Shown: positions 8,391-36,841 of the stretch, in pieces
How the letters are laid out: each line of letters begins with the position of its first letter
Position numbering within the stretch: position 1 is the first letter of the stretch
Source: an uncultured Prevotellaceae bacterium
GTDB taxonomy: Bacteria > Bacteroidota > Bacteroidia > Bacteroidales > Bacteroidaceae
Direction of reading: 5' to 3'
NCBI GenBank assembly: GCA_902801375.1
Contig: CADCIB010000019.1
Location: forward strand, 1-53,264
Length of the DNA: 53,264 nucleotides
Made by a program: the position numbers and the translations under genes
The notes under the pieces: model-generated
The model's input: only the letters and a program-made list of their open reading frames with translations
What the model was told of the DNA's origin: nothing
Database searches by the model: none

Positions 8391-8910
8391 CATTCCCACT
8401 TCTTTTTATTCATTATTAACTACCGAGGGGACTTTAGTGACCGCATAGGACCATCTATCATAGCAAGAAATTCTTGACGAAGAATCTTGACAAATTTTGG
8501 TCTGACTTTTTTCGCATTCTACGCAAAGGAAAGCCCGTCTGTGAGGGCATTACCCACAAGTCGGAATGGTTCGGATTATCCCCGAGGGTGTCATTTATGG
8601 TCTCTATGGCGGTCAGAGATAGTCTGAGAGGGTGCCAGACATTATCACCGAGCGTGTGATTTGACGCAGATGAGCCTGTGATTTGCCGCAAATTGCACGG
8701 TTGTTTGCGGCAAATGACAAAGTGATCTGCCGCAAACGAGTATGCCTCAGAAGGCAAAAACTATCCTGATTCGCATAAACAGCTTGTTGTCAGCGAGTTA
8801 AGAAAATCGCTCATTTTGCCCGTTTTTCCGACCGAGCGACAATCTGTTTTCAAATTTGCGAGTATTGACCCACTTAAATTCGAAGTTTTCTTGACAAAAC
8901 AGATGAGGAG
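8391..8910. other. gene-free region between gcvT and the C10 peptidase gene
   Basis: Apart from the gcv promoter at its left edge and the 22-bp array (8583-8780), I see nothing functional. A 99-codon open frame on the minus strand (8458-8757) spans the array but resembles no protein. No hairpin with a T-tract is visible after the peptidase stop at 8911. Confidence 0.6.
8583..8780. repeat. 22-bp-period degenerate tandem array (palindromic units), upstream of gcvT
   Basis: The clearest four units occupy 8649-8736. Each holds a 13-bp palindrome of the form ATTTGC(C/G)GCAAAT, with centres at 8665, 8687, 8709 and 8731, exactly 22 bases apart. Weaker units keep the phase on both sides: 8583-8604 shares CGAG-GTGT-ATTT with the unit at 8649, 66 bases (three periods) later; 8737-8758 keeps CGAG at its start and GGCAAA at its end; 8759-8780 keeps TGATT-GC-AAA. 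Units at 8605 and 8627 are poorly conserved. There are no CRISPR-like spacers, since the whole period is the repeat. Confidence 0.85.
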
Positions 8911-11238
8911 TCAATCCTCTATCTTGATTATTGTACCATCCGACAGACAGGCTATGCGGATGCCCCGCGAGCCCTTGCCTTGCAGCCTCCGCCCTTGGAT
9001 ATCGTAGAATGAAACGACGTTGGGATTCATGAATGTCTCGCTGATGCCGATGTTCACATCGTCGCTTAACGGAATACTGAACTTCGAGAGGTCGTATGGC
9101 TGCATGGGCTTGTCGCCCTCATACAGCCTACATTCGTAGACCTTGCCTATTTTCATTCCACTGTCAGAGGCATCGCAATGGAAGTCGAAGGTAGACTTTC
9201 CTGGGGGCAGGTTCACCTGTTGCCTGCCCACTTCTACATTCAGGCCAGACATATAGTCATCTGAACGAAGCACGATGTCGCCTTGGTAGGTGGTGCCATA
9301 GTTCATCACGTTTATCGTGAGGCACAGGTCGTTGCGGTGGAACTTCATGTCTTCGCTTCCTGCTATTGGAGTGTTCTCCAAAGCCAAGACGGGTGCCGTC
9401 GGGGTACCCTCAACGCTGACATTCTTGAGAGAAGCAAGTGTTACGTAGGACTCTACGTCGATAAGGTCCAGGATGTAGTTGTCGGCGGCAGGCAGTTGCA
9501 CGTTGGCATCCCAGTCGATGGTGGTTGTGGTTCCAGCTGGCAATTCTGCAAATCCTACGAACGGCGAGGTATACTGCAGCTGGGTATCGGGATTCTTCAA
9601 CCTGAAGAGAAGATCGCTCATGTGGGTGTCGCCCTCATTCTTGATTTCCAGGCTCACCTTAGAGTGACCGCCGGACTGAATGACGCCGCCCACAATGCCA
9701 GCAAGCGATAACCGTACTTGATGCGTACCGTCGACCCATGCCTTGCCTTCTTCCACATGAATGCGGTATTCACTGATGCCATCAGGAGCGATGCGGACGG
9801 TGTCGGCGACGGCATCATCCTCGACGACATAGCAGAGCTTTGCCCGATAGTCGCCGTCGCTCAGGTCCGCAGGAAGCGGCAACTGGCTGAAAATATAACC
9901 GATTGCCCCCTTGTGTCTCTCCGGCGCTTTGGGTATCGACTCAGCCACCGTCTCGCCCGTTTGTGGGTCGATGAAGGCGAAATAGAACTTATAGGGCTTC
10001 CCCGCCAATGTAAAGTCGTTGAACACGATAGCCAACTCAATCGTACTGCCCAGGGAGGCCTCCACATGATTCTGCTCAGGCAACGACCAGCCGCAAAGCT
10101 CGTAGTGTGTCTTGGAGTCTTCTCGCGGCGGCTGAATGCCTATGATCATGTCCGATCTATGCTTAAAGCCCTCGCCCTCTTGCATTCCGTCTTCCACCAA
10201 TGTCGGAGGATCAAGAGCCGAAAGCAGGTAGTAGCCGTTGTCGTCGCCATCCCATCCCCAGTTTATGTGATAGTAACCTTTTCCGTCGGAACCATCGCAA
10301 ACAAAAGAATGTCCGCTTTCGGGATAGTAGGTGAAGCCACCGTAGATGACTGGGCGACCGGCTGTCAGTTCGTCGGAAAGCAACTGTTGCCATTCACTGT
10401 CGGTATAGAATTTTCGACTCCTGTACGAGATGCCCTTGTCATAGTTGAAATAGTTTGCCAAAGCGGGTGCCACATCCGTTTGCTGGGCACCACTTGCTTC
10501 CCCATAGTCCATGTCGACACTGATACCTGCGTGAAGCAGCAAGGTGGCCACGGCATTGATGCTCCGCGGGTCGCTCTGAGCGTCTAATCGCGGCCTCATC
10601 CAATCCCACTCGTATGTGGTGGACGCGAAGTCGGCATACAAATCGGTATACTTGATGGTGTGTTCGCCCAAGCCGTGGATGGGCCATCGGTGATAGTACA
10701 TCACCTGCCCCATAGACACGGCCACACAGCCTACCGCACTGCGCTCACCTGTGAAGCTAAACCTGCCGACAGGTGAGAGAATGTTGTATGGGGCGCCCTG
10801 CCCCCATTCGATGTTGCCTAACAGTGGAGCCACGGCCTGCCCAGTGATGGCCGGAGAGGAAGTCTGCGGCAGAGGCTGCTGCCCTATCTCACGCAACAAT
10901 TGCCGCAAAGTGGGCGACAACGTGGAGTCGCTCAAGCATCCTTTCTCGGAATAGCCGGCCACAACGGGCGTGCCGCCATTGGGAACGACGAGAACAAAAC
11001 CTTCGTTGCTTCCGTAATTATAGGCATACCAGGAGGGTTGGCCGTCAGAAGACAACACTTTGCTTTCCATCTTTGAAGTGACGGAAGGCAATGATTCGTG
11101 CAAATGGATGTCTTGGAAAAACTTGTCGGCAACAGATCTCATGGCCGACTGCTGAAAGCCGCCGTCGTTTTGTGCTGAAGCAAGGCAGCTCACCATCATG
11201 GCAAGAATGAAATGTAGCGTTTTGTTCATATTATTCAT
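8911..11238 (-). CDS. secreted C10 family cysteine peptidase (streptopain-like) with C-terminal sorting tail
   Basis: The 775-residue protein starts with a signal peptide (to about residue 22). A propeptide-like region (about 30-130) precedes a C10 catalytic domain related to streptopain, interpain and prtT: the nucleophile is Cys171 in 'SAVGCVAVSMGQV', the catalytic His is His310 in 'ESGHSFVCDG', and 'YYHINWGWDG' (322-331) follows, as in the family. The C-terminal half has beta-sandwich, CARDB-like segments. The last 40 residues ('FYDIQGRRLQGKGSRGIRI...') are a divergent sorting tail, so it is probably exported to the cell surface or medium. An alternative ATG three codons in (11229) gives an equally good signal peptide. 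A -7 box (TAACTTTG, 11276-11269) lies upstream, but its -33 box is poor. Confidence 0.9.
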   Translation of the reverse strand: MNNMNKTLHFILAMMVSCLASAQNDGGFQQSAMRSVADKFFQDIHLHESLPSVTSKMESKVLSSDGQPSWYAYNYGSNEGFVLVVPNGGTPVVAGYSEKGCLSDSTLSPTLRQLLREIGQQPLPQTSSPAITGQAVAPLLGNIEWGQGAPYNILSPVGRFSFTGERSAVGCVAVSMGQVMYYHRWPIHGLGEHTIKYTDLYADFASTTYEWDWMRPRLDAQSDPRSINAVATLLLHAGISVDMDYGEASGAQQTDVAPALANYFNYDKGISYRSRKFYTDSEWQQLLSDELTAGRPVIYGGFTYYPESGHSFVCDGSDGKGYYHINWGWDGDDNGYYLLSALDPPTLVEDGMQEGEGFKHRSDMIIGIQPPREDSKTHYELCGWSLPEQNHVEASLGSTIELAIVFNDFTLAGKPYKFYFAFIDPQTGETVAESIPKAPERHKGAIGYIFSQLPLPADLSDGDYRAKLCYVVEDDAVADTVRIAPDGISEYRIHVEEGKAWVDGTHQVRLSLAGIVGGVIQSGGHSKVSLEIKNEGDTHMSDLLFRLKNPDTQLQYTSPFVGFAELPAGTTTTIDWDANVQLPAADNYILDLIDVESYVTLASLKNVSVEGTPTAPVLALENTPIAGSEDMKFHRNDLCLTINVMNYGTTYQGDIVLRSDDYMSGLNVEVGRQQVNLPPGKSTFDFHCDASDSGMKIGKVYECRLYEGDKPMQPYDLSKFSIPLSDDVNIGISETFMNPNVVSFYDIQGRRLQGKGSRGIRIACLSDGTIIKIED

Positions 11239-11314
11239 GGTTTGTAGAATTATTGAATATTACGACTGCAAAGTTAGCTAAAACATCGCAGAATGGACCA
11301 TGAATTAAACCTCT

Positions 11315-36416: not shown

Positions 36417-36465
36417 AATTATAGCATTTTAGAATTATTTGTTACATTACACATATCTTATGGTG

Positions 36466-36496
36466 CAAAAGTAACGTATTTACTGCAGACTTACAA
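36466..36496 (-). promoter_or_regulatory. promoter of BspA-like copy 2
   Basis: Minus strand: TTG (36496-36494), 20 bases, TACTTTTG (36473-36466). Confidence 0.78.
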
Positions 36497-36841
36497 CAAT
36501 TTTAACACTTTTAACACAATTAACCAAAAGATAATAGATGTTAGCATGAAACAACACCAAAACACTAATCTAATCTTTGTCACAATTGTCACGTTTCATG
36601 TTTTTCCGTTTGTTATCTGCAAATCTGCCGACCGCTATTACAGAGCTTGTCGTTTGATATTTCTATGCCTGCCGTTCACTATCTCTATGCTTGTCATTCA
36701 TTATCTCTATGCTTGTCATTCTATATCTCTATGCCTGTTGTACTATATCTCTATGCTTGGTGTCAGTTAAGAACAAAACACCCGCGGGACAACGATGGTA
36801 GTTTCGCTCTGCAATAAAAATAAAAATTTTTGGGTTTTCAT
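36497..36841. other. divergent gap between BspA-like copy 2 and pyrG
   Basis: No gene is seen. The gap holds the 22-bp array (36603-36756) and an A/T-rich lead-in to the pyrG promoter. A 74-codon plus-strand frame (36546-36770) is open across the array but is made of translated repeat. Confidence 0.65.
36603..36756. repeat. 22-bp-period tandem array, upstream of pyrG
   Basis: Five clear units end in CTATGC at 36668, 36690, 36712, 36734 and 36756, exactly 22 bases apart. The core TATCTCTATGC is intact in the last four, and most units begin TTGTC or CTG. Two weaker units keep the phase to the left: 36625-36646 matches the second clear unit at about 15 of 22 positions, and 36603-36624 at about 13 of 22 against the unit consensus. 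The core TATCTCTAT reads the same in both directions on one strand (a mirror repeat) rather than being a true palindrome. The array ends 85 bases upstream of the pyrG -33 box. Confidence 0.9.

Follow-up and report, generated by a model that had tools for sequence, protein, structure and literature searches.

What holds the period of a tandem repeat constant when its letters change? The question is raised by a stretch of 53,264 nucleotides from an uncultured Prevotellaceae bacterium (contig CADCIB010000019.1 of assembly GCA_902801375.1; the whole stretch is called the window below), in which a first-pass annotation had described three intergenic arrays that share one exact 22-bp period yet no unit sequence. 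The window is contig 19 of its genome, which has 3,481,156 bases in 57 contigs and is referred to as G000 (G and L numbers denote genomes and loci). Bacterial repeats are normally defined by their sequence; here, it is the spacing that is kept across a bacterial family while the sequence is not, and sequence-based repeat searches would miss the connection for this very reason. Intergenic 22-bp steps with varying letters suggest that these cells contain something that writes or reads DNA two helical turns at a time. The three arrays are as follows.

8583..8780, no strand assigned: gcvT-side array; clear 22-bp units of the GTGATTTGMCGCAAA type at 8649-8758, weaker repetition at 8583-8648
27017..27104, plus strand: valS-side array; four units of a family (family A, GTTTTC-7-GAAAAC-3) that is dispersed in G000
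36635..36766, plus strand: pyrG-side array; six units of the ATATCTCTATGCYTGYCATTCA type, same family at five further G000 loci, without a stable fold

Tandem Repeats Finder returned period 22 at 8656-8736, 27017-27101 and 36657-36756, and by eye the register was kept in rows of 22 over 8649-8758, 27017-27104 and 36635-36766. The best 66-bp match of each gap fell at lag 22 (46/66, 49/66 and 57/66 for the gcvT, valS and pyrG gaps) against shuffle maxima of 34, 38 and 38 (p=0.002 for each array; 500 dinucleotide shuffles per gap, maximum taken over lags 15-30). The exact period is thus confirmed, as part of a phenomenon larger than was claimed, with the left part of the gcvT-side array weaker than its remainder. 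That the units have no common sequence was nearly right: the word AGAGATAGT is common to the gcvT and pyrG arrays, and TGACGC to the gcvT and valS arrays. TGACGC occurs in 10 of the 27 arrays of the G000 sample when flanks are included, eight times the expectation, and outside G000 only in 7/9 arrays of G016 and 1/3 arrays of G091. Besides the pyrG unit, the valS unit recurs at many loci of G000 and gcvT-like units are found at L024.

The same period forms a sharp intergenic peak in a sample of the genome. We sampled 40 stretches of 20 kb which, with the window, make 853,264 bases (24% of the genome), gaps being delimited by a crude custom open reading frame (ORF) caller rather than a gene finder. 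A first lag test used 22-bp windows with 17 or more matches; at lag 22 it marked 801 positions, spread over 20 of 325 gaps, against 1 position in 1 gap after shuffling; the adjacent lags 21 and 23 gave 111 positions in 4 gaps and 56 positions in 5 gaps, and the runner-up that is not a multiple of 22, lag 24, gave 194 positions in 7 gaps. Inside ORF calls, 156 positions stood at lag 22, all in 4 ORFs; the arrays of L010, L017, L043 and part of L009 were covered by ORF calls and are therefore absent from the later gap counts. A second test (44-bp windows, at least 26 matches, lags 16-29), whose threshold was set after the first result had been seen, found lag 22 in 26 of 284 gaps and the next-best lag in 7. 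Arrays of this period occupy a minority of the G000 gaps. Gaps without a strong array show no residual lag-22 excess in G000, and do show one in the genus relatives. Each genome has several unit families, and the units are dispersed and mostly species-specific.

The peak extends to relatives, grouped by pre-assigned kinship labels. With the 44-bp test, lag 22 was found in 41 of 308 gaps in nine other genomes of the genus (800 kb pooled; all other lags from 16 to 29 at 6 or fewer), in 13 of 172 in five other genera of the family (400 kb pooled; lag 21 in 6) and in 2 of 138 in nine genomes from other families of the order (358 kb; lag 21 in 4, lag 23 in 3). Relative to this last set, the enrichment was significant for the genus (Fisher p=1.8e-5), for the other genera (p=0.015) and for G000 itself (p=0.0016). 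One genus member, G026, had been chosen partly for a weak lag-22 match at its pyrG locus; leaving it out gives 31 of 272 gaps for the genus. Taken singly over lags 14-33, lag 22 leads in six of the nine genus genomes (G016, G058, G006, G046, G026 and G055) and ties in G024 and G010; among the other genera it leads in three of five (G091, G092 and G115). The genomes from other families of the order show no such peak, and nothing was found at lag 22 in 100 kb of E. coli. The intergenic lag spectrum proposed as a check by the first-pass annotation was positive on these samples, with a sharp peak at 22 carried by unlike units in a minority of gaps. In more selective samples, lag 22 gave 8 groups and 262 positions at the valS loci of 29 family genomes (three from the same genus, coding sequence included), where lag 21 gave 10 groups and 133 positions, mostly coding-like by eye. 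At the pyrG loci of 29 genus genomes, the lag-22 yield was 4 groups and 146 positions. In 81 kb of G003, picked because it is closely related to G026 and rich in repeats, 23 groups stood at lag 22 and 7 at lag 23. As a separate observation, G126 carries period-21 arrays with a GTTTG..CAAAC type dyad (L203, L204) as well as 22-bp arrays.

The number of clear units per array ranges from two to seven and mostly lies between three and six. Of the G000 families, A reads GTTTTC-TGACnnn-GAAAAC-nnn, B GTAnnTTAnTAAnnTAC plus five positions and C ATTTGnnGCAAAT plus nine; further families comprise the pyrG type and several that occur once. Units elsewhere include GGTTTC-7-GAAACC-3 in G055, AAAACCTATGCTTTT-7 in G006, and both TGGGTAATACGATTACCCA-3 and CGTTTC..GAAACG in G024. 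When core motifs were searched for without regard to period and neighbours within 70 bp were counted, the distance was 22 bp for 19 of 21 family-A neighbours (the others at 23 and 24), all 15 in family B, all 7 in family C, 9 of 10 with the G006 core at two mismatches (the other at 45), 4 of 5 in G055 (the other at 44) and 34 of 40 in G026 and G003 (the other six at 44). The pyrG family has 36 matches at six loci, 4 of which stray outside arrays; its steps inside arrays are 25 of 22 bp, one of 44 and none of 23, and since matches were barred from overlapping, steps shorter than 22 could not show, while steps of 23 could. One family-A array, at L079, is directly abutted on its left by GAGTGTTTCTGATGCAGAAACACTC, a palindrome with 11-bp arms.

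Within units, variation is uneven over the 22 columns (p=0.0005 each) in family A (22 units), family B (19), G058 (42), G006 (23) and the pyrG family (36, the four stray matches included). Seven columns of the pyrG family depart from the consensus in 16-19 of 36 matches, and six in just 2-4. Dyad symmetry at p<=0.05 by column permutation was found in 13/27 G000, 28/46 genus, 6/15 other-genera and 0/2 order arrays, 47 of 90 in total, arrays of one family not being independent in these counts; by eye, inverted ends some 12-15 bp long can be made out in family B. The dyad arms showed no covariation (192 paired cells vs 194 ± 7 after shuffling, 78 informative pairs), as contacts, and not base pairing, would lead one to expect.

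We tentatively favour, short of calling it probable, the reading that the arrays are dispersed clusters of putative protein-binding sites phased at two helical turns. Its basis is the predominant 22-bp spacing, the conserved columns beside variable loop and linker columns in five families, the dyad symmetry of about half of the arrays by one test, and families that differ between species, one of them copied in blocks, with positions not conserved at the two loci tested. Each cluster would offer a few sites, mostly three to six, to one or more sequence-specific DNA-binding proteins, and for the palindromic families the reader would most likely be dimeric. As 22 bp is about two helical turns, neighbouring molecules would lie on one face of the helix and bind side by side; cooperative binding by the protein that reads an array would then set the spacing, and its role would be a general one (nucleoid, insulation or the spreading of repeats) and not the control of one gene. 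A reader that measures spacing had been suggested by the first-pass annotation, and this fits better than the slippage that it also suggested; its qualification that spacing is read "rather than sequence" does not hold, several families having strongly conserved positions. A wider form of the idea strikes us as rather unlikely: that Prevotella and its relatives share an undescribed, family-wide DNA system whose constant is the 22-bp step, the recognition sequence being replaced from species to species and from locus to locus. A set of rapidly evolving dimeric proteins, or a single scaffold whose DNA-binding parts change, would then be lined up on one helix face at some hundred intergenic places per genome, a figure scaled up from the 27 arrays counted in 853 kb of G000. 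Should the step be read by a protein, this would amount to a general system, architectural or regulatory, in a common group of bacteria of the gut, mouth and rumen; should it be written by an enzyme, to a repeat generator of a new kind.

A number of observations weigh against the protein-site reading. No reader protein was found, the only family sought being the Y1 transposase, and one protein cannot read all arrays by sequence because a single genome has several unlike families. The pyrG array is not conserved in 29 relatives, where the sole weak lag-22 match (L060) has another unit and other neighbouring sequence, nor is the valS array in 29 relatives, with L178 as the sole weak match. Lag 22 trails in the genus genome G045 (1 gap vs 2 at lag 18) and, among the other genera, in G126 (4 gaps vs 5 at lag 21), and is absent from G110. 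Looser motifs show less strict spacing: one G016 core had 4 of 7 neighbours at 22 bp (another gave a single pair, at 66), among the 10 neighbours of a loose G058 core (52 sites) two stood at 22 and two at 44, and the G006 core at four mismatches had 12 of 19 at 22. An earlier, consensus-based dyad test on a stricter array set was weaker, with 8/24 G000 arrays and 6/35 arrays of relatives at p<0.05 (14/59). Column unevenness was not detected in G055 (p=0.19, 7 units), a per-array unpooled test showed no heterogeneity (mean z -0.7, -0.4 and -0.4), and the pooled column tests overstate the number of independent changes because units are copies and arrays were copied between loci.

The main rival, unlikely in our judgement but still a serious contender, is that the arrays are dispersed non-autonomous repeats without host function, of the kind of bacterial interspersed mosaic elements (BIMEs) or miniature inverted-repeat transposable elements (MITEs), copied by a transposase or by recombination, so that the conserved positions would reflect recognition by the copying machinery. 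The distribution of units speaks for it: the exact family-A tandem pattern is matched 20 times in G000 and in none of 59 other genomes, and other species carry other units. So does the pattern of likeness: across different family-A arrays, units that share a position resemble each other more than units that do not (p=0.002; ten of eleven loci, five of the ten found by motif pattern, with L084 omitted for having units in both orientations), and since likeness follows unit position, family A was copied between loci as blocks. Family A is nevertheless present at two places of a second Prevotellaceae assembly, a sharing that suggests a Prevotella-like genus for G000; at one of these places, the 300 bp preceding the match in the G000 counterpart gene (74% identity) lack an array. 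Viral contigs have no family-A match. Some pairs (L085/L087 and L025/L029, by eye) also share short flanks of at most ~20 bp. The two relatives G003 and G026, whose longer matching blocks are 92-94% identical and whose shorter ones are 75-96% identical, point the same way, their gaps being mosaics of dispersed palindromic repeats: every one to few genes, gene order is interrupted by a gap crowded with such repeats, and the gap before the same gene holds the same kinds of repeat in a different assortment. No clean empty site was found between these two genomes, because gene order breaks at the repeat-filled gaps. Palindromic gap repeats such as CCCCTCTCCGAATGGAGAGGGG occur at L121 and L210-L214 (G026 and G003). 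Against the rival, likeness among the G000 family-A and family-B arrays stops near the array edges, with no long shared leader or tail, and the genome has no Y1 transposase of the RAYT type (REP-associated tyrosine transposase, REP being repetitive extragenic palindromic), other transposase types not having been searched for. By itself, it also leaves one period across many unlike families unexplained. The protein-site reading and the copied-repeat reading can be combined.

Published parallels exist in Porphyromonas gingivalis, which belongs to the same order of bacteria as the present genome. BrickBuilt, an intergenic minisatellite with a 23-nt unit that is carried within a MITE of this species (PMC4596501), is the closest published element that we found and a related thing, and it gives the copied-repeat reading a precedent. 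The likeness lies in an intergenic tandem repeat of near-equal period, dispersed, with conserved and variable unit sites and a limited host range, some copies standing beside gcvT and tRNA synthetase genes in the account given there (PMC4596501). BrickBuilt is a single family of up to 22.8 units, with a leader that reaches 285 nt, a tail that reaches 318 nt and IS5-type terminal repeats (PMC4596501), whereas here the step is 22 bp in many unlike families of mostly three to six units, and the compared arrays have no long shared flanks. The window arrays depart from BrickBuilt in that all three have period 22 instead of a 23-nt unit, and the family-A and family-B arrays of the G000 sample in that they lack a shared leader and tail. 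The same paper cites, from an earlier genome report, 41-, 23- and 22-nt tandem direct repeats in strain W83, in a passage without sequences or places; a 22-nt class is thus on record in this order of bacteria (PMC4596501). The first-pass statement that no named element has this property must accordingly be tempered by BrickBuilt and the W83 repeats (PMC4596501). Literature searches, confined to an open library and to titles and abstract openings, yielded no paper on a family-wide 22-bp step, or on a period held at 22 bp in Prevotella or the family around it. In a genome from another family of the order (G077), 2 of 12 gaps have period-23 intergenic arrays with a CTCACAATCTTGTCAATTTTTAT-like unit (L149), which recalls the BrickBuilt step.

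REP/BIME palindromes are likewise short and intergenic, with some species-specific and some clustered families; these GTAG- or CGTC-tagged repeats (PMC3733652) occur predominantly as opposite-orientation dimers and rarely as head-to-tail ones, have unpaired tags, and in the GTAG families are tied to RAYT. Here, by comparison, units form runs at a fixed step. A RAYT/REP identity was rejected, as PF01797 has 0 matches in G000 (96% complete); it is present in 3 of the 8 genomes searched. In the iteron arrays of plasmid origins, too, binding sites of ~17-22 bp recur about every two helical turns. Iterons, however, are devoted to a single replication origin, whereas the arrays here are many, chromosomal and of many sequences.

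That the arrays are neutral minisatellites born of slippage is improbable. Some replication property of this bacterial family would have to favour 22 bp, and substitutions would have to outpace insertions and deletions (indels) for the phase to survive, which accords with the fact that bacteria accumulate fewer indels than substitutions. The tandem form and the decay at array edges fit, as does the greater likeness of family-A units within a locus than between loci (0.844 vs 0.832, permutation p=0.04), but this excess is very small, conserved columns stand beside strongly variable ones, and the gaps in question hold far fewer repeats of other periods. The first-pass annotation had proposed a structure of fixed size as the primer of slippage; this is disfavoured by the same small excess, by the lack of arm covariation and by the pyrG array, which as single-stranded DNA folds worse than its shuffles (z +2.3), and the G006 array, which folds ordinarily (z +0.3). 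The other four of the six arrays tried fold strongly (valS z -5.0, gcvT -3.6, L043 -9.0, L126 -6.8).

The placement of the arrays involves the following neighbours.

7227..8321, minus strand: gcvT, start codon towards the first array; matches the NCBIfam model GcvT
27251..29992, plus strand: valS, downstream of the second array; matches the NCBIfam model ValS
36904..38514, plus strand: pyrG, downstream of the third array; matches the NCBIfam model PyrG
658..701, no strand assigned: lone 23-bp repeat pair upstream of the 16S rRNA gene; membership in the series not supported

The NCBIfam models agree with the gene names first given. Siting upstream of housekeeping promoters holds for the three window arrays, counting as promoters what we take to be such downstream of each from a known motif read by eye. 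It is not a rule, because gap-type counts elsewhere do not follow it. Compared with length-weighted expectations, G000 arrays fell in 7 divergent, 14 tandem and 3 convergent gaps and 3 stretch ends (expected 6.5, 12.9, 4.6 and 2.9), genus arrays in 4, 22, 19 and 1 (expected 9.6, 21.7, 11.1 and 3.6) and other-genera arrays in 0, 8, 7 and 0 (expected 2.9, 7.2, 3.9 and 1.0), so that the arrays of relatives lean towards convergent gaps (for the genus, 19/46 vs 11.1 expected, binomial p=0.008). The median distance of arrays from 3' ends is 131-231 bp. The rRNA-side pair, offered as a companion of the arrays, is a single 23-bp duplication (p=0.018, same shuffle test as the window arrays) and was kept out of the 22-bp series for being a lone pair of another length. 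The pyrG promoter region (36802-36878) is itself a dispersed repeat, of which 34-71 bp match L033, L041, L026, L013, L040 and L034 at 90-95%.

Tandem hairpins in RNA or single-stranded DNA, acting as terminator-like, processing or replication structures, are a very improbable explanation: the four strongly folding arrays and the convergent lean in the genus would suit them, but they were rejected as the common cause because the pyrG array (like that of G006) has no fold and the dyad arms do not covary, while the median distance to 3' ends also speaks against them and a scan against Rfam at gathering score over 133 kb (the window and four stretches, from five sources) returned one rRNA and one tRNA and left the arrays unmatched.

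Unlike dyads that share one 22-bp grid numbered 6 pairs in G000 vs 1.7 after shuffling and were left as weak: only L038:1755 and L043:16212 stand at family-B arrays, several matches in other genomes resemble tRNA arms by eye, and a first dyad spectrum in G000 (22 pairs vs 0.8) consisted mostly of the arrays themselves. Clustered regularly interspaced short palindromic repeat (CRISPR) arrays were rejected since the units adjoin, with variable stretches of just 3-9 bp (by eye); cas genes were not searched for. A CRISPR-like repeat of ~30-44 bp does occur at L020:100-1060, with fifteen matches spaced mostly at 54-65 bp, and has single copies in other sampled stretches.

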